Of a stretch of 52,945 nt of DNA, positions 2,543-52,945 are shown piece by piece. The notes below the pieces were generated by a model. That model saw only the letters and a list, made by a program, of their open reading frames with translations. It made no database searches and was not told the DNA's origin. Both the position numbers and the translations under genes were made by a program. Positions within the stretch are counted from its first letter, which is position 1, and each line of letters opens with the position of its first letter. The stretch covers positions 1 through 52,945 of the forward strand of contig NZ_JAPSHV010000008.1 of assembly GCF_031179385.1 (NCBI RefSeq), given 5' to 3'. This DNA is from Arthrobacter sp. (lineage in GTDB: Bacteria > Actinomycetota > Actinomycetes > Actinomycetales > Micrococcaceae).

Positions 2543-3355
2543 TTGCCGCTGGAAATACTCACTGACGCGTCAGATCCCCGCGTCACCGATTACACCGGCC
2601 TCACCGACACCCAGCTGCGTCGGCGGCGGGAACCGGCGGAGGGCCTCTATATCGCCGAAAGCACGAAGGTGCTCCGCAGGGCGATCGACGCCGGTCATAC
2701 TCCTCGTTCCTTCTTCCTGACGGACAAGTGGCTGCCGGATCTCGAGGACGTCCTTGGCCGGTTTCCGGACGTGCCCGCCTACGTTGGCTCTGAGGCCGTA
2801 CTCGAGGAGATCACCGGTTTCCATCTGCACCGCGGAGCGCTGGCGGCCATGAACCGGCCCGCCCCGCGCGGCGTGGAAGACGTTCTGCGCGAAGCGCACC
2901 GCGTCGTCGTGCTTGAGGACATGGTGGATCACACCAATCTTGGCGCCGTGTTCCGCTCCGCTGCGGCGCTCGGCATCGACGCGGTCCTGGTTACTCCGCG
3001 ATGCGCGGATCCTCTGTACCGCAGGGCAATCCGCGTCAGCATGGGAACCGTATTCCAGGTCCCCTGGGTCAGGCTTGAATCCTGGCCGGACAGCATCAGC
3101 ACCCTGCGCGACCTCGGTTTCCTGGTCGCAGCGCTGGCCCTTGAGCCAGGGTCGATCGAATTGCAGGAGCTGTCACAGCGAAACCCTGAACGCCTTGCTC
3201 TAGTCCTCGGTACTGAAGGTGAGGGGCTCTCTCCACAGACCATCGAAAGCTCGGATCTCATCGTCCGTATTCCCATGAGCAATGCCGTCGACTCGCTCAA
3301 CGTTGCAGCAGCGGGGGCCGTCGCCTTCTGGGAGTGCCGCCGTCGTACCGGCTGA
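2543..3355 (+). CDS. TrmH/SpoU family RNA 2'-O-methyltransferase
   Basis: SPOUT-class methyltransferase of 270 residues that transfers a methyl group from SAM to a ribose 2'-hydroxyl of rRNA or tRNA. An N-terminal substrate-binding domain (about 1-105) is followed by the knotted catalytic domain: motif 1 with DHTNLGAVFRSAAALG, motif 2 LGTEGEGLS, and motif 3 IPMSNAVDSLNVAAAGAVA. The start is TTG at 2543, one base after the preceding stop, so translation is probably coupled. Closest in layout to actinobacterial TsnR/RlmB-like proteins; the exact target nucleotide is not decided. Confidence 0.9.
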   Translation: MPLEILTDASDPRVTDYTGLTDTQLRRRREPAEGLYIAESTKVLRRAIDAGHTPRSFFLTDKWLPDLEDVLGRFPDVPAYVGSEAVLEEITGFHLHRGALAAMNRPAPRGVEDVLREAHRVVVLEDMVDHTNLGAVFRSAAALGIDAVLVTPRCADPLYRRAIRVSMGTVFQVPWVRLESWPDSISTLRDLGFLVAALALEPGSIELQELSQRNPERLALVLGTEGEGLSPQTIESSDLIVRIPMSNAVDSLNVAAAGAVAFWECRRRTG

Positions 3356-3730: not shown

Positions 3731-3748
3731 CCTCGTTTAGTCTGCGCC

Positions 3749-3790
3749 GCTGGGCCCGAACCGGAATTTCCGGTTCGGGCCCAGCGCTTT
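3749..3790 (+). terminator. Rho-independent terminator after rpmE2
   Basis: Near-perfect GC-rich hairpin: the left arm 3749-3766 pairs with 3768-3785, in practice a CCGG-closed stem with an A/T loop, followed by GCGCTTT. It separates rpmE2 from lplA. Confidence 0.85.
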
Positions 3791-10198: not shown

Positions 10199-11046
10199 CC
10201 CGTTTGCTGATCGAACACCGCACGGGGTACGACTACCTGCGCCGCGTCTCACTGTCGTACAACGAAGCCCGCATGACTCCGCTCACGGATTCCCAGCAGG
10301 TGGTCCTGGAGTCCACCATCAGCCTGAACCCCACCAGCGCGGCCATGGCGACCTACCGGGACTACTGGGGCACGCGGGTGACCTCATTCGATGTGCAGGT
10401 TCCGCACGATCGACTCGAAGTATCCGCCCGGACGCTCGTCGAGGTGAGCCGCACTGAACGAATTCCCTCACCGGAGGAAGTGGTGAGCTGGGAGGATTTG
10501 CGGTCCGACGACGTCGTAAACGACTACGCGGACTGGTTGCCGCACACCCATCTGACCAAGCCGAATGACGAGATTCGCGCTTTGGCAAGCGAGGTAACCG
10601 ATGGCCAGGATCCGCACACCGCGGCTCACTCCGTCTTCGACTGGCTGAAGGGCGAGATGCAGTACGTGCAGGGAGTCACGGGTGTTCAATCCAACGCGCG
10701 TGATGCGTGGGCTGAACGTCAGGGCGTGTGCCAGGATCTCGCGCATGTCGCGATAGGCGCGCTCCGCAGCCTTGGCATTCCGGCCCGATACATTTCGGGT
10801 TATCTCCATCCGCGCAGGACGGCGGCCGTCGGGGAAGCAGTAGCCGGCCAGTCACATGCCTGGGTCGAATGGTGGGACGGCGAATGGCGCGGCTGGGATC
10901 CGACCAACAGCGGTCCGGTCAGTGACTTCCACGTATCCGTGGCGCGCGGCCGCGACTACCGGGACGTCTCGCCGCTCAAAGGCATCCTCTCGGGCGGCGG
11001 CGGGTCCACGCTCAACGTGACGGTCGAGATCAAGCGCGTAGCCTAA
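10195..11046 (+). CDS. Transglutaminase-like cysteine protease family protein
   Basis: A 283-residue protein with an N-terminal beta domain (about 1-85, bacterial transglutaminase-like N-terminal region) and a transglutaminase core. The catalytic triad is visible: Cys in RQGVCQDLAHVAIGALRSLG, His in GQSHAWVEWW, Asp in WRGWDPTNS. Family members may cleave or form amide bonds. The start ATG at 10195 overlaps the alpha-E stop (ATGA) and follows GGGGGAGG. An alternative frame start at 10117 lies within alpha-E and is unlikely. It is the last gene of the ATP-grasp/alpha-E/transglutaminase operon and is followed by a strong hairpin. Confidence 0.92.
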   Translation: MTRLLIEHRTGYDYLRRVSLSYNEARMTPLTDSQQVVLESTISLNPTSAAMATYRDYWGTRVTSFDVQVPHDRLEVSARTLVEVSRTERIPSPEEVVSWEDLRSDDVVNDYADWLPHTHLTKPNDEIRALASEVTDGQDPHTAAHSVFDWLKGEMQYVQGVTGVQSNARDAWAERQGVCQDLAHVAIGALRSLGIPARYISGYLHPRRTAAVGEAVAGQSHAWVEWWDGEWRGWDPTNSGPVSDFHVSVARGRDYRDVSPLKGILSGGGGSTLNVTVEIKRVA

Positions 11047-11080
11047 GCAGGGCAGCCGCCCTGGTGGCGGCTGCCCTGCT
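11047..11080. terminator. Hairpin between the transglutaminase gene and glgC
   Basis: Perfect 14-bp GC-rich stem: 11047-11060 pairs with 11066-11079 around a five-base loop. It has no long T run. It sits one base after the transglutaminase stop and before the end of the opposed glgC gene, so it could serve both. Confidence 0.7.
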
Positions 11081-11116
11081 TGGGAATATCCCGGATTCGA
11101 ACTACCTCAGGGGCGG

Positions 11117-21292: not shown

Positions 21293-21345
21293 CACCATCG
21301 AAGGGCCGGCTTCCCCGCCGCGGGGAAACCGGCCTTTCGATGGTG
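21293..21345. terminator. Long hairpin after the serine protease gene
   Basis: Near-perfect inverted repeat with arms of about 25 bases around a CCG loop; the outer arms are CACCATCG and CGATGGTG. There is no T run, but position and stability suit a terminator of the protease gene. Confidence 0.7.
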
Positions 21346-22692: not shown

Positions 22693-22776
22693 GCGCGGGT
22701 GGCGGAATGGCAGACGCGCTAGCTTGAGGTGCTAGTCCTCTTATTGAGGGTGGGGGTTCAAGTCCCCCTCCGCGCA
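22693..22776 (+). tRNA. tRNA-Leu (anticodon GAG)
   Basis: An 84-base class II tRNA. The acceptor stem GCGCGGG pairs with TCCGCGC, the anticodon arm is GCTAGC-TTGAGGT-GCTAGT with GAG in the loop, a long variable arm (CCTCTTATTGAGG) follows, and the T arm is GGGGG-TTCAAGT-CCCCC. The CCA end is not encoded. A TAGAGT box at 22643-22648 may be its -10. Confidence 0.96.
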
Positions 22777-24547: not shown

Positions 24548-24589
24548 TCGATGAGTGTGTGAAGCCACCAACCTTGCGAATCGGTCCAA

Positions 24590-24638
24590 CGAAAAAGCAC
24601 CCACCCCCTGCGGTCGGCAGGGGGTGGGTGCTTTTTCG
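24590..24638. terminator. Bidirectional terminator
   Basis: Perfect 22-bp stem (24590-24611 with 24617-24638) around a five-base loop, with five A at one end and five T at the other. It can end transcription both from the small CxxC frame on the plus strand and from the lipoprotein gene on the minus strand. Confidence 0.95.
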
Positions 24639-24653
24639 TGTCGAGGAGCAGGA

Positions 24654-47433: not shown

Positions 47434-50249
47434 TGACCTCCCCAGCCGAGCGGTATCAGGCAGCGCAGGCACGCAATCGATACGCGAGAACCCGACTCCA
47501 CCAGTTCGAGCAAACCCTCGGTTTCGACCTCGACGAGTTCCAGCGGGAAGCCTGCACATCCCTTGAGGCCGGCAGGGGAGTGCTGGTCGCGGCGCCCACC
47601 GGTGCAGGGAAGACCGTCGTCGGTGAATTCGCCATCTTCATGGCGCTCAGCGATCATCTGAAGGCCTTCTACACCACACCCATCAAGGCACTCAGCAATC
47701 AGAAGTACGCTGAGCTGGCCGCTGTCCACGGCGCTGACCAGGTCGGTCTGTTGACCGGAGATACCAGCATCAATCCCGAAGCCCCCGTCGTCGTCATGAC
47801 CACGGAAGTTCTCCGCAACATGCTGTACGCGGACTCCGACACACTCGCGGGTCTGGGCTACGTCGTCATGGACGAGGTGCACTATCTAGCTGACCGGTTC
47901 AGGGGTGCCGTATGGGAAGAAGTGATTATTCATCTGCCCACCGAGGTCAAGGTGGTTTCCCTGAGCGCGACGGTCTCCAACGCCGAGGAGTTCGGTGCGT
48001 GGCTCCATACCGTGCGGGGGGACACCGATGTTGTGGTCTCAGAGCACCGGCCCGTTCCGCTCTGGCAGCACGTGATGGTTGGCCAGCAACTGCTTGACCT
48101 GTTCGCCGGTGAAGTGGCCTTCGATGAAGCAGCAGCTGAAGGTTCGTCAAGCGGCGCCGAAGAAAAGTTCGCTGTCAACCCGGAACTGCTTGATCTCGCG
48201 ACCACCGAAACGCGGCTTAACCAGAGGGCTCGTTGGGGCTCCGGCCCCAAGCGAGGACGCAATGGCCAAAGCCGGTACCAGCAACCGCAGACTGCCGTGC
48301 GGAGAGCGAGCCGCCCGCAGGTAATCGCCGCATTGGATCGGGAAGGCCTCCTGCCGGCGATCACCTTCATCTTCTCTCGCAACGGCTGTGAGGGTGCAGT
48401 CACCCAGTGTCTGGACGCCGGATTATGGCTGACGACGGAATACGAGCGCGGCATCATCAGTGACCGTATCGAGGAAGCAACCCTCGATATTCCCGAGGAA
48501 GACCTTGAAGTTCTCGGCTTCTGGTCCTGGCGGGAGGGTCTCATCCGGGGGTTCGCGGCGCACCACGCCGGAATGCTTCCCACCTTCAAGGAAGTGGTGG
48601 AGAAACTCTTCGAGGAGGGCCTCGTCAAGGCAGTCTTCGCAACAGAGACGCTGGCGCTCGGCGTCAATATGCCCGCCCGGTCGGTGGTCCTCGAGAAGCT
48701 CGACAAGTTCAACGGGGAAGCCCACGTGAACATCACGGCGGGGGAGTACACACAGCTCACCGGACGGGCAGGGCGACGCGGAATCGATGTGGAGGGTCAC
48801 GCCGTCGTTCTGTGGCAGCCCGGCACGGACCCGGGCGCGGTCGCCGGTCTGGCTTCCCGCCGTACGTACCCGCTCAATTCCAGCTTCCGTCCCACCTACA
48901 ACATGAGCATCAACCTCATCTCGCAGTTCGGGCAGCACCGGACCCGCGAGATTCTGGAAACCTCGTTCGCCCAATTCCAGGCAGATCGCTCCGTCGTGGG
49001 GCTCGCGCGTCAGGTGCGCACGCGTGAAGAATCCCTCAAGGGGTATGCAGACGCGATGACTTGCCACCTGGGCGATTTCCCGGAGTACTCGGCGATCCGG
49101 CGAGAGCTGTCCGACCTCGAGGCTGCGGCCTCGAAGGCCGGCGCCAGGAACCGGCGCAGCGCGGCCGCGGCGTCATTGGAAGCGCTTCGGCCCGGCGATG
49201 TCGTCGATATTCCCGCGGGGCGGGTAGCCGGCTACGCGGTCGTTCTCGCGGGGGACACGGCGCGCGATCCGCGTCCGACCGTTCTGACCCTCGAGAAGCA
49301 CGTCCGGCGGCTGTCGGTGCAGGATCTCGATGGTCCGGTCGAGGTCCTGTCGCGTCTGCGGGTACCCAAGCAGTTCGATGCCCGCAAGCCGAAGGACCGC
49401 CGCGATCTCGCCGCGTCCCTTCGGAACTCGCTCAACGATCGGCGTCCACCCACCTCAAGGACACCGGTCGAATTTCAGACCGTCGGAAGCGAGCGGCAGG
49501 AGAAGGCCATTGCCGACCTGCGCCGTCGACTCCGCGCCCACCCCTGTCATGGTTGCAGCGACCGCGAAAACCATGCCCGCTGGGCTGAACGGTGGTGGAA
49601 GCTGCGGCGGGAGACGGACCGGATAGCCCAGCAGATCCAGGGCCGCACAAACACCATCGCGAAGACGTTCGACCGGGTATCCGAGGTTCTGCTCAGCTAC
49701 GGCTATCTGCAGGAACACGAAGAGCAGGGCCTCGCGATTACTCCAGCCGGCCAGAAGCTTCGTCGGATCTACGGTGAAAAGGATCTCCTGATCGCACTGT
49801 CCCTCGAGAACGGTGCCTTCAATGACCTTGATGCCGCCGAGCTTGCCGCCCTTGCGTCGGCGCTCGTGTACCAGGCCAAGCGGGAGGAGCGCGGTCTGCG
49901 TCCACGCATGCCGTCCGTCTCGCTGGAGACGTCCGTTGATGTCGTGATCCGGCAATGGTCCCGCTTGACCGACCTTGAGGAGCAGTACCGCCTCACTGTT
50001 ACGAGTGAACCGGACTTCGGCCTGATGTGGCCGATCTATAAATGGGCTCGCGGAAAAGGGCTGCAGAGCGCGTTGCAGGGAACCGATCTCGCGGCCGGCG
50101 ATTTCGTGCGCTGGGCGAAGCAGATTATCGATCTCATCGACCAGCTCGCAAAGGTGCCCGACCTGCCTCCCGGCTTCCGCCGCCTCTGCATCAACTCGAT
50201 CGACCTCATCCGGCGCGGCGTAGTCGCATACTCTGCCGTGACGGAATGA
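47433..50249 (+). CDS. helY: Ski2/Mtr4-like DEAD/DEAH-box helicase HelY
   Basis: A 938-residue superfamily 2 RNA helicase, like mycobacterial HelY (about 906 residues). Motif I is AAPTGAGKTVV, motif II VMDEVHYLADR (DEVH), motif III SLSATV, and motif VI LTGRAGRRGID. A basic linker (about 230-290) and a C-terminal DSHCT-like helical region follow. It probably unwinds structured RNA for decay or rRNA processing; the partner is not known. The next gene, an amidohydrolase, starts inside its last codon (ATGA). Confidence 0.95.
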   Translation: MTSPAERYQAAQARNRYARTRLHQFEQTLGFDLDEFQREACTSLEAGRGVLVAAPTGAGKTVVGEFAIFMALSDHLKAFYTTPIKALSNQKYAELAAVHGADQVGLLTGDTSINPEAPVVVMTTEVLRNMLYADSDTLAGLGYVVMDEVHYLADRFRGAVWEEVIIHLPTEVKVVSLSATVSNAEEFGAWLHTVRGDTDVVVSEHRPVPLWQHVMVGQQLLDLFAGEVAFDEAAAEGSSSGAEEKFAVNPELLDLATTETRLNQRARWGSGPKRGRNGQSRYQQPQTAVRRASRPQVIAALDREGLLPAITFIFSRNGCEGAVTQCLDAGLWLTTEYERGIISDRIEEATLDIPEEDLEVLGFWSWREGLIRGFAAHHAGMLPTFKEVVEKLFEEGLVKAVFATETLALGVNMPARSVVLEKLDKFNGEAHVNITAGEYTQLTGRAGRRGIDVEGHAVVLWQPGTDPGAVAGLASRRTYPLNSSFRPTYNMSINLISQFGQHRTREILETSFAQFQADRSVVGLARQVRTREESLKGYADAMTCHLGDFPEYSAIRRELSDLEAAASKAGARNRRSAAAASLEALRPGDVVDIPAGRVAGYAVVLAGDTARDPRPTVLTLEKHVRRLSVQDLDGPVEVLSRLRVPKQFDARKPKDRRDLAASLRNSLNDRRPPTSRTPVEFQTVGSERQEKAIADLRRRLRAHPCHGCSDRENHARWAERWWKLRRETDRIAQQIQGRTNTIAKTFDRVSEVLLSYGYLQEHEEQGLAITPAGQKLRRIYGEKDLLIALSLENGAFNDLDAAELAALASALVYQAKREERGLRPRMPSVSLETSVDVVIRQWSRLTDLEEQYRLTVTSEPDFGLMWPIYKWARGKGLQSALQGTDLAAGDFVRWAKQIIDLIDQLAKVPDLPPGFRRLCINSIDLIRRGVVAYSAVTE

Positions 50250-51904
50250 ACACTCCCAACCCGAAAGTCGTACCTGTGCCAGCACAAGATCCCAAGCCCG
50301 TCCTGTACCGCAACGGCTCCGTCTACAGCGCCGCCGATCCCTTCGCCACCGCCATGCTGGTTACGGGCGACACGGTGGCGTGGGTCGGATCCGAGCACGC
50401 GGCGGCCGCGCTGGCTGACAGCAGCATGGACGTGATCGACCTACAGGGCGCGCTCATTGCCCCCGGCTTTGTCGACTCCCATGTGCACACCACCGAGACG
50501 GGATTGGCGCTCACCTCGCTCGACCTTACCGCGGTGAATAGTCTTGCCGAACTATTGGAGCTGGTAGCCGGCGCAGCCGCTGATACTACCGGAACGATTC
50601 TAGGCAACGGGTGGGACGAGTCGCGGTGGTCTGAGCGCCGGCCGCCCACGGCGGCAGAGCTCGAGAATGCGTCCGGCGGCCGGGATGTCTACCTCGTCCG
50701 CGCTGATGTGCACTCCGCTGTCGTCTCCGCGTCTTTGGCCGGGCGGCTCTCCCTGCAGGACCACGATGGGTGGGACGACGGTTTCGTTGTACGGGACGCC
50801 CACTTCGCAGTCCGGTCTGCGGTGCGGAATCTGAGCATCGGTGAAAGGGACAAGCTTCAGCGCGCGGCACTCGATCACGCGGCCGCGCACGGGATCGTTG
50901 CAGTCGTCGAGATGGCTGCTCCGCATATCGCCCCGCGCGAGGACGTCCTGGCGTTGCTCGAACGCGACGGTGCATACCCGGAAGTTCTCGCCTACTGGGG
51001 GCAAAGGGCCACCTCCGAGGAGGAGCTGCTCGGCATCCTCCAGGGCTTCGACGGTCGCATCCTGGGCCTCGGCGGCGACCTCAACGTCGACGGCTCCATC
51101 GGCTCGCACACTGCCCGCATGAGGGTTCCGTACGCTGATGCGCCGCACAGCTGCGGAAGCACTTTCATGCACGAGGACGACGTCGCCGCCCACCTCTCAG
51201 CAGCAACCTCGGCAGGATTGCAGGCGGGCTTCCACGTTATCGGCGACGAAGGACTGGACACTGTGATCGCCGGACTGGAGAAGACCGCAGTCATCCACGG
51301 GGTCGAAAAGGTCCGGGCTTCGCGGCACCGGCTGGAGCACGTCGAAATGGCCGATGATAATGCTATTCAGAAACTGGCCCATTTCGGAACAATTGTGAGC
51401 GCCCAGCCGGGATTCGACGCGCTGTGGGGTGCACCTGGCGGGCTGTACGAACAGCGCCTGGGCCCGGACAGGTACACGCCGATGAACAGGGTGGGCAGCC
51501 TACTGAGCCAGGGGGTGCCGGTGTGCCTTGGTTCTGACTCTCCCGTCACCCGCATGTCTCCCTGGCAGTCCGTCCGTGCGTGCATCGCGCATGCCAGCCC
51601 CGAGGAGCGGATTTCCGCCCGGGCGGCATTTCTTGCGCATACGCGAGCAGGCTGGCGTGCAGTAGGCGCGGAGAATCCGCTCCTCGGTCAGCTCGTTCCA
51701 GGAGCGCCCGCGTCCTATGCGGTGTGGGAGGTCGATGAGTTGATGGTCCAGACGCCGGACAGTCGGGTCCAGTCCTGGAGCACGGATCCGCGCGCCGGAA
51801 CCCCGTTGCTTCCCGCTCTCGATTCCGCGAACGAGCCACGATGCCTGCAGACCATGCACAAGGGGGTCCAGCTCTTCGCTGACGACAGCCTTACCCATCG
51901 GTAA
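50246..51904 (+). CDS. Amidohydrolase family protein (YtcJ-like)
   Basis: A 552-residue metal-dependent hydrolase of the amidohydrolase-3/YtcJ type. Metal ligands are in VDSHVHTTETG, later His residues are in GFHVIGDEGLDT and HRLEHVEMAD, and the catalytic Asp is in LGSDSPVTRMSPW. A small N-terminal beta domain (about 20-65) and its C-terminal partner complete the fold. Substrate unknown. The ATG at 50246 overlaps the helY stop (ATGA); the longer frame from 50042 lies within helY. A weak GC hairpin follows the stop. Confidence 0.9.
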   Translation: MNTPNPKVVPVPAQDPKPVLYRNGSVYSAADPFATAMLVTGDTVAWVGSEHAAAALADSSMDVIDLQGALIAPGFVDSHVHTTETGLALTSLDLTAVNSLAELLELVAGAAADTTGTILGNGWDESRWSERRPPTAAELENASGGRDVYLVRADVHSAVVSASLAGRLSLQDHDGWDDGFVVRDAHFAVRSAVRNLSIGERDKLQRAALDHAAAHGIVAVVEMAAPHIAPREDVLALLERDGAYPEVLAYWGQRATSEEELLGILQGFDGRILGLGGDLNVDGSIGSHTARMRVPYADAPHSCGSTFMHEDDVAAHLSAATSAGLQAGFHVIGDEGLDTVIAGLEKTAVIHGVEKVRASRHRLEHVEMADDNAIQKLAHFGTIVSAQPGFDALWGAPGGLYEQRLGPDRYTPMNRVGSLLSQGVPVCLGSDSPVTRMSPWQSVRACIAHASPEERISARAAFLAHTRAGWRAVGAENPLLGQLVPGAPASYAVWEVDELMVQTPDSRVQSWSTDPRAGTPLLPALDSANEPRCLQTMHKGVQLFADDSLTHR

Positions 51905-51991
51905 CCTCGGTCCCGATCTGATCAACCCCGGCGGCCCACCGGGCGCTCCGCTGACCTGCACGAATACCTAAAACCGCACGTCAGGACGCTG

Positions 51992-52019
51992 TTGACACCT
52001 CCTCCACAGCCCGTAAGCT
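51992..52019 (+). promoter_or_regulatory. Strong consensus-like promoter
   Basis: A perfect TTGACA -35 (51992-51997) and TAAGCT (52014-52019) are spaced by 16 bases. This is the closest match to consensus I noticed in the window, yet no normal gene follows for 400 bases. Transcription would start near 52026. Confidence 0.6.
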
Positions 52020-52025
52020 GTTAGA

Positions 52026-52230
52026 TCTACGGGTCGTACTCTGGCATTCCGGATAGACCTGACCGAGCCACCGCATACTGCGACGCCAAAGGGGACGAAA
52101 GACGTGGATGTTAGGCTCTTTCGCGCGGTGGAAGGCTTGGTACTCACAAACGGGTAGGTTTGCACGTCAGTAGAAAACAGCGCCGATCAATTGATCACTG
52201 CTGGCCCGAAGGCGTGCAAGCCTACCCGCG
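52026..52230 (+). ncRNA. Candidate structured RNA or mRNA leader
   Basis: The segment after the strong promoter can fold extensively. An 18-bp helix joins 52151-52168 (CGGGTAGGTTTGCACGTC) with 52211-52228, with only two G-T wobbles. Inside it CAGC/GCTG (52178-52181 with 52200-52203) and the palindrome GATCAATTGATC (52185-52196) extend the stem. A second helix CCACCGC/GCGGTGG joins 52068-52074 and 52125-52131. AAAGGGG at 52088-52094 precedes two tiny frames (17 codons from GTG 52104 and 21 codons from ATG 52108) that run into the long hairpin. It does not match any RNA family I can recall. Whether it is an independent RNA or the ppm1 leader is not decided. Confidence 0.4.
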
Positions 52231-52277: not shown

Positions 52278-52354
52278 TGGGCAGTGCCTTCAAGCTTCGC
52301 GGCCCTGGAGCCGCGCGGGAAGTCGGCGGATGAGGCGTGCAGTTGGCATCTGCC

Positions 52355-52360
52355 TATACT
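52355..52360 (+). promoter_or_regulatory. Possible -10 box before ppm1
   Basis: TATACT at 52355-52360 fits a -10 box well and would give a leader of about 60 bases before GTG 52428. No matching -35 is seen. Confidence 0.35.
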
Positions 52361-52427
52361 GGGAAGCCCGTCCCGGTTCACCGAGCTGCTGCGCGCCTGC
52401 GCACCTGCCCCATCGAAAGGTTCTTGA

Positions 52428-52945
52428 GTGCGCGTTGTTACGATCATTCCCACCTACAACGAGCGCCAATCACTTCCCCTGACTCTTGACCGGCTCCGGG
52501 CAGCCGTACCGCACTCCGACGTTCTCGTGGTGGACGACAACAGTCCTGACGGCACAGGGGAGCTGGCGGACGCGATAGCAGCGAACGATTCAGCCGTTCA
52601 TGTCCTGCATCGGCAGGGCAAGGAGGGTCTCGGTGCCGCTTACATCGCCGGTTTCCGGTGGGCGCTTGACCGTGAATACGACGTTCTCGTCGAGATGGAT
52701 GCCGACGGATCGCATCAGCCGGAGCAGCTTCCCTCGTTGCTCGATGCAGTCCCCGGTGCTCATCTTGTAATTGGCTCCCGATGGGTTCCGGGCGGCTCAG
52801 TTGTCAACTGGCCGTTCCATCGCAAGCTGCTCTCACGCGCCGGTAGCTTGTACTCGCGCACAATGCTTGGTCTGTCGGTGCGCGACATTACCGCCGGCTA
52901 CCGTGCCTTCCGCCGTGAGACCCTTGAGAGCATTGACCTGTCCAC
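52428..52945 (+). CDS. ppm1: Polyprenol monophosphomannose synthase (3' end outside window)
   Basis: Family GT2 glycosyltransferase that moves mannose from GDP-mannose to polyprenyl phosphate, giving the donor for membrane-side mannosylation of lipoglycans and proteins. The visible 172 residues show [15 protein letters not shown], the donor site [15 protein letters not shown], and the metal motif [17 protein letters not shown] at 52428 follows GAAAGG at seven bases. The frame is open at the window end. In actinobacteria rbpA often follows, outside this window. Confidence 0.93.

Follow-up and report, generated by a model that had tools for sequence, protein, structure and literature searches.

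The amidohydrolase-ppm1 intergenic region and its promoter

The sequence analysed here (the window) is a stretch of 52,945 nucleotides from an Arthrobacter genome. At its right end, an amidohydrolase gene (positions 50246 to 51904, forward strand; Amidohydro_3, E 9e-70), which is the conserved upstream neighbour of the locus, and the 5′ part of a gene for a family 2 glycosyltransferase (52428 to 52945, forward strand, truncated by the window edge) are separated by a gap of 523 nt. The gap holds a predicted RNA gene (52026 to 52228, forward strand), whose start is set from the −10 box of its promoter and whose end is set from the end of a hairpin, P3, and the point where conservation ceases. 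An earlier note had drawn attention to the region; its coordinates are base-exact and all the elements it listed were found in place. The name it gave to the downstream gene, ppm1, is kept below as a label: the fragment scores over the Glycos_transf_2 cut-off, no NCBIfam equivalog passes its cut-off on it, and the exact name is unconfirmed.

The promoter described by the note as near-consensus is present, with a TTGACA −35 box (51992 to 51997) and a TAAGCT −10 box (52014 to 52019) on the forward strand, spaced by 16 nt. Both boxes are kept in all 26 copies of the element recovered from the genus: the first reads TTGACA in 25 and TTGACT in one, the second TAAGCT in 21 and a one-letter variant in five. 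A generic promoter and terminator scan reported nothing in this region because it requires at least four matches out of six in each box, and TAAGCT has three.

A feature absent from the earlier note, a conserved 32-bp palindromic site with the sequence TGACCTGC-N16-GCACGTCA (51952 to 51983, unstranded), lies 8 nt on the 5′ side of the −35 box. The same order is found in 26 of 26 genus copies, namely TGACCTGC-N16-GCAGGTCA, 8 nt, a TTGACA-like −35 box, N16 and a TAAGCT-like −10 box, with the left half of the palindrome exact, the right half carrying zero to two mismatches and the distance to the −35 box constant. In the genus, 33 of 37 genomes contain the exact pattern, about once per genome. 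When each palindrome was counted once and its position assigned by eye against the places matched by the RNA model, 31 of the 36 exact sites lay at the RNA promoter; the reversed pattern, used as a control, gave none. The palindrome of the window, having one mismatch, is outside these 36. Genus palindromes often enclose an inner GAAAC/GTTTC palindrome.

In other families two copies of the half-site form a direct repeat, TGACCTGC-N11-TGACCTGC; of 29 loci, 9 have it exactly and 15 with at most one mismatch per half. The inverted form also occurs outside the family, exact in locus L170 and with one mismatch in L164. Neither form was found within three mismatches in 10 of 21 Micrococcaceae loci from other genera and in 8 of 29 loci from other families; shuffled sequences gave one or the other form in 23 of 1340 cases. 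By eye, the motif GACACGCCG recurs upstream of the operator in several loci outside the Micrococcaceae (L100 to L110 and L153 to L172), and TTGACAC likewise contains GACAC. The palindrome was also considered as a terminator of the amidohydrolase gene. This is not favoured, since the half-site recurs elsewhere as a direct repeat, which is unable to form such a hairpin. The simplest reading of the upstream site would be a protein that binds paired half-sites. The 32-bp palindrome is the probable, predicted binding site of a regulator of the RNA, and a candidate site for a dedicated one. Transcription is predicted to start near 52026 under the control of this DNA-binding protein, which is probably an activator because the site sits just upstream of the −35 box.

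Conserved architecture of the predicted RNA

Analysis with RNAalifold of an alignment of the 26 genus copies, that of the window included (alignment A1), gave three structural elements on the forward strand. P1 is a hairpin (52031 to 52060) formed by 52031-52035 pairing with 52056-52060. P2 is a long-range helix (52062 to 52141; 52062-52067 with 52136-52141) that encloses a variable domain. P3 is a long hairpin (52151 to 52228) whose outer stem joins 52151-52168 to 52211-52228 and whose apical stem (52178 to 52203) pairs 52178-52181 with 52200-52203 and 52185-52189 with 52192-52196. In the window, the 18-bp helix that the note had placed here pairs at all 18 positions with two G-U pairs, and the nested stems lie where it had put them (CAGC at 52178, GCTG at 52200, GATCAATTGATC at 52185). 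Among the 26 sequences, P1 is paired in 96.9% of cells, with both sides changed at one of five pairs, and P2 in 95.5%, with both sides changed at four of six. Changes on both sides affect 12 of the 16 modelled pairs of the P3 outer stem (16 of 17 in the 62-copy alignment described below) and eight of the nine apical pairs.

Across the whole of A1, 25 of 36 pairs have at least one sequence in which both sides have changed and pairing is kept. Cells are paired in 96.2% of cases, against 84.0% in shuffled alignments and 29-40% when the partner strand was slid, and none of 500 shuffles reached any of the five measures used; A1 is also the source of the structure, which is thereby favoured over the slid versions, and relatedness can by itself beat shuffles. 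The argument is therefore carried by the size of the difference in A1 and by a wider alignment of P3 (A5). The latter comprised 62 of 67 copies, omitting L062, L079, L154 and L157, which are near-duplicates, and L168, in which the 3′ strand was mis-anchored. In A5, 19 of 21 P3 pairs have changed on both sides; 91.8% of cells are paired, against 74.9% after shuffling and 30-44% after sliding; and no shuffle in 500 matched the data on four measures, one in 500 doing so on the fifth. A further alignment, A4, was not used because the hairpin model R1, run on its own 67 source sequences, gave 17 extra matches, 15 of them antisense over the same hairpin and two elsewhere. Full-length alignments past the family were scripted only, and one mixed group aligned poorly. 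When the homologous gaps of relatives were aligned, the helices were thus found conserved, with strong covariation. The compensatory and G-U changes uphold the suggestion, made in the note from wobble pairs, that selection acts on RNA pairing. By this comparison the predicted P1/P2/P3 architecture is under base-pair selection.

A second helix proposed in the note, 52068-52074 with 52125-52131, pairs at seven of seven positions in the window and is not kept in 20 of the 26 copies: four copies have all seven pairs and two others six, and one pair is compensated in L006. The helix locally extends the conserved P2.

The domain enclosed by P2 contains the purine run AAAGGGG at 52088, as described, followed by two short frames beginning with GTG at 52104 (17 aa) and ATG at 52108 (21 aa), and the note had considered a peptide-controlled leader. 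The purine run is partly kept, as AAGGGG, in the nearest relatives (L003, L004, L006 and L007), and L003 keeps both starts. In L004 to L007, however, start codons or frame are lost: the ATG is replaced by ACG in L006, immediately followed by TAA in L004 and missing in L007; the GTG of L005 is interrupted by a one-base gap. Measured from the −10 box onward, copies are 196 to 217 long, and their lengths do not differ in triplet steps. The short ORF is not conserved, and a leader peptide, which we regard as extremely improbable, was rejected on these two grounds.

The region folds more stably than chance. The segment 52145-52235 gave z = −6.5 and the segment 52026-52240 z = −3.7, with none of 200 shuffles equally stable in either case. 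The fold alone would not settle the case, because long stems also occur elsewhere in the window, where 11 have at least 14 pairs with loops of at most 60, two of them longer than 18 bp and one equal. Four other long hairpins in the window, at 24589-24639, 11042-11084, 3748-3786 and 21293-21345, mostly have short loops and are probably terminators. What sets P3 apart from the other hairpins is conservation and not stem length.

The 3′ boundary of conservation is sharp. In the seven best relatives (72-88% identity), the main DNA match runs from 51928-51951 to 52227-52228 (query positions 24-47 to 323-324), and so ends at the last base of the long stem of P3. Mean column majority in the genus alignment is 0.76 in P3 and 0.44 just after it. 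The RNA would end at, or soon after, P3. By a rule-based definition, a U-run follows P3 in 11 of 67 copies (1 of 17 in the genus, 8 of 21 in other Micrococcaceae and 2 of 29 in other families) and is absent in the window. The lack of a U-run in 56 of the 67 copies, the window's included, together with the conserved internal loop described next, argues against P3 being a terminator only. Together, the conserved promoter, the covariation and the end of conservation at P3 support the note's proposal of a small RNA with a promoter of its own, as a predicted RNA.

The most conserved part of the RNA is the internal loop of P3, in which [U/C]AGANAAC faces GGNNCGAAG. In the window the 5′ side is AGTAGAAAA (52169 to 52177) and the 3′ side GCCCGAA (52204 to 52210), both on the forward strand. 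The 5′ motif is present in 67 of 67 copies listed and GGNNCGAAG in 63 of the 67, counts that are partly circular because the 5′ core pattern was the key used to list the copies; the models and the synteny are not circular. In A5 the 5′ strand is invariant or near-invariant, and the P3 stems and the apical loop vary while the internal loop stays conserved. The arrangement C-AGUA-G facing C-GAA-G is that of the sarcin-ricin or loop E motif. This is a motif and not a family, and 25 of the 67 copies depart from AGUA: the bases at these positions are AGUA in 42, ACUA in 7, CUUA in 6, AGCA in 5 and others in 7, the DNA variants being AGCA, ACTA, CTTA, ATTA, ATCA, CATA and CGTA. CTTAGA stands in place of AGTAGA in L004, L021, L071, L075 and L079, which belong to more than one group, a change that could put ordinary pairs with GAAG where the non-canonical motif would be.

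A conserved internal loop flanked by helices would resemble a docking site for a protein or ligand, and less a base-pairing seed. Pairing with mRNAs is a common role of bacterial small RNAs, and the regulated promoter predicted here would suit an RNA that pairs with messengers through exposed sequence. Across families, however, no single-stranded stretch is kept outside the internal loop, the apical loop and the 5′ domain varying in sequence and length, and we consider such a base-pairing RNA very unlikely. Protein docking is the reading we prefer, because conservation sits in the helix-flanked loop while stems and apical loop vary; the sarcin-ricin-like AGUA/GAA would then form a rigid platform in P3.

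Distribution and gene order

DNA searches matched 26 of 38 genus genomes, the window's included, and a full-length model (R2) matched 37 of the 38. The sole genome without a match, G003, has no ppm1 match at E 1e-40 either, and for this reason an assembly gap is likely there. Stricter filters were applied in searches over more than 40 genomes, making the family, order, class and phylum counts that follow lower bounds. R2 matched at least 180 of 395 family genomes, which represent 16 of the 32 genera. Nearly all of the genomes listed had a single match; the RNA would usually be present once per genome. The core pattern was found in 41 named stretches from Arthrobacter (in the wide sense), Sinomonas, Psychromicrobium, Paenarthrobacter, Acaricomes, Haematomicrobium and a Renibacterium bin, and in 19 of 19 fetched loci from other genera the RNA lies between the amidohydrolase and ppm1 genes. 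Among 18 Micrococcaceae genomes without an R2 match, 16 have ppm1. A copy precedes this gene in L243, L245 and L249, as located by a motif-and-helix script, and in L244, which was recognised by eye, the script having missed it through a helix offset wrong for that locus; L248 has a partial-looking copy, also seen by eye. By script and eye, the other 11 of the 16 have no copy before ppm1. The RNA is therefore dispensable, and has been lost, or never gained, in some Micrococcaceae lineages.

The hairpin model R1 matched at least 62 of 396 order genomes, 42 of them outside the Micrococcaceae, and 31 of these 42 were examined, in sets of 11 and 20. Among the first 11, the RNA lies just 3′ of the amidohydrolase gene in eight and of a helicase gene in three, and lnt follows among the ORFs listed, the one in L106 scoring as Lnt over the NCBIfam cut-off. 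Among the next 20, lnt is just downstream in all 20, joined by ppm1 in 14, and the helicase or amidohydrolase gene is upstream in 18. Since synteny was not used in finding them, these weakly scoring matches are taken as true. A model built from A5 (R3) matched, at E up to 0.01, at least 124 of 394 class genomes, from 63 of 137 genera. In 20 of these 124 loci that were fetched, lnt or ppm1 lies within 6.2 kb in every case, and the amidohydrolase or helicase gene was found in only five. In all, 70 of 70 fetched loci inside the class adjoin lnt, ppm1 or the usual upstream neighbours, and one of them is inverted: in L206 (genome G808, family f36; about 3032-3118 on the match strand) the RNA is turned around relative to amidohydrolase, lnt and ppm1.

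In the phylum, at least 17 of 296 genomes matched, five of them outside the class, one with E from 2e-7 to 2e-4. Of these five, L230 retains amidohydrolase and lnt. In L224, L225, L226 and L235 none of the four query proteins was found within about 1.5 kb, L225 reaching a contig end on its downstream side so that its neighbours are half known. L224 to L226 all carry GCGTATGGGGAAGGCG at the apex, together with a long helix resembling P2. In group f37, probably Streptomyces (L203 to L205, L231, L233, L234 and L236), about 200 nt on the 5′ side of P3 are strongly conserved, including GAGCCAGG and a GGTAGGTT −10 box, and the RNA therefore looks longer. Many distant actinobacteria thus carry a copy, in most cases at the equivalent position.

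This constancy of position raises the possibility of a cis-acting leader or attenuator of lnt or ppm1, with P3 or its loop as the sensor of a protein or ligand and read-through or translation as the step controlled. The RNA adjoins these genes in the loci fetched from the class and nearly always has their orientation. Moreover, in L075, L079 and L081 a distance of 37-56 nt separates the end of P3 from the ppm1 match, and these three loci have no promoter 5′ of P3 by pattern and none between P3 and ppm1 by eye. In the window, however, 200 nt separate the end of P3 from ppm1 and contain the −10-like TATACT (52355 to 52360, forward strand), a possible −10 box for a promoter belonging to the downstream gene. 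A DNA search revealed a second conserved block, 52346-52427, in five close relatives, and TATAAT-like letters occur just 3′ of P3 in several other genera by eye. A position always co-directional with the following gene, as in the 5′ UTR of a riboswitch or cis leader, was not found, given the inversion in L206, although the position fits in most other fetched loci, and the four copies outside the class mentioned above have other neighbours. The regulated gene would also have to change, because the next gene is ppm1 in the Micrococcaceae and the probable Streptomyces group and lnt in most other families. Constant neighbours can equally be plain inherited gene order. A cis leader seems to us unlikely. 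We favour a separate, trans-acting RNA gene on account of the predicted operator and promoter in front of it, the fact that conservation stops with P3, the downstream −10-like box, the inversion in L206 and the four copies located elsewhere.

Relation to known RNAs and possible role

The note had given no named RNA family with these features, and the Rfam 15 search without a match bore this out. At gathering thresholds, Rfam 15 matched in the window only a tRNA at 22693, and it found nothing at 20 loci drawn from 14 families; with E allowed up to 10 it gave chance matches only in the gap and, across eight loci, nothing at the element. Two families of similar size call for comparison, 6S RNA (RF00013; model of 187 positions) and raiA RNA (RF03072; 209 positions). 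The latter is likewise structured and shares several genomes with the predicted RNA. Its model, however, does not match the locus; it matches elsewhere in 5 of 11 genomes tested and was not found in the window's genome.

6S RNA, which binds the sigma-70 RNA polymerase holoenzyme and serves as a template for pRNA, has a long hairpin with an internal loop and a promoter of its own. The predicted RNA resembles it in its size, strong promoter and long loop-bearing hairpin, and could be a 6S- or Ms1-like RNA that binds RNA polymerase and fills a 6S gap. In 10 of the 11 genomes tested, the window's (G000) included, the 6S model finds nothing. The eleventh, G1150, carries a 6S RNA at another place, on a different contig from its copy of the predicted RNA, so that the two coexist; at the element itself there is no match and no 6S score. 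Ms1 RNA (MTS2823, scr3559) is also actinobacterial and, according to PMC9130861, was found across the phylum with the aid of synteny; its conserved neighbours there are a HAD-IB hydrolase and an oxidoreductase gene, and it lies mid-chromosome in Streptomyces. The predicted RNA has helicase, amidohydrolase, lnt and ppm1 as neighbours, and f37 copies are elsewhere, at 1.31 of 8.04, 1.71 of 9.17 and 6.20 of 7.08 Mb. It is set apart from Ms1 by neighbours and place. PMC11077062, a RIP-seq paper, identifies scr3559 and scr0792 as the RNAs that polymerase binds in S. coelicolor, apparently neither of them at this locus, and also expects more such RNAs, naming Micrococcus luteus. It further describes CoRP RNA, which is actinobacterial, recent and found by experiment and not by a known family model; unlike the predicted RNA it is 516 nt long, has homologs only in Corynebacterium and lies among tRNA genes. 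Weighing these points, we consider a polymerase-binding RNA of the 6S or Ms1 type distinctly unlikely.

Among the literature matches listed, which covered the main texts of openly available articles, there was no paper recognisably on this RNA. The locus is not named in the passages returned by term searches of PMC8164766, PMC3765725, PMC11678152, PMC11109978, PMC8632094, PMC2422843, PMC4681348 and PMC4895711. A full-text search for the core letters returned only a C. elegans paper, and one for scr1424, scr1423, SCO1423 and SCO1424 returned two papers on mannose synthesis and no small RNA. The transcript may already stand unnamed in small-RNA tables.

On the comparative evidence, the element almost certainly represents a real RNA gene family, and as far as searched this RNA is the first described member of an actinobacterial family. 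We postulate that it acts in trans through a protein bound at the P3 internal loop. The full statement, a separate family of noncoding RNA genes of about 200 nt acting in trans by protein docking at this loop, is one toward which we lean with only modest confidence, since its mechanism is a reasoned guess. The novelty lies in the family: structured RNAs that bacteria transcribe separately are, as a broad kind, already known. It is rare for a structured RNA to span a large part of a phylum, and among such RNAs whose role is understood several run core processes. We would tentatively entertain, as a doubtful but attractive extension, a phylum-wide global riboregulator whose P3 loop docks one conserved machine, be it RNA polymerase, the ribosome or a dedicated RNA-binding protein, and which its own transcription factor switches on through a site present about once in each genome of the genus. 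With a near-invariant loop, a promoter and operator fixed in the genus and a stable gene address, and yet no entry in Rfam 15, the RNA offers a testable target for the question of which RNAs replace 6S in actinobacteria.
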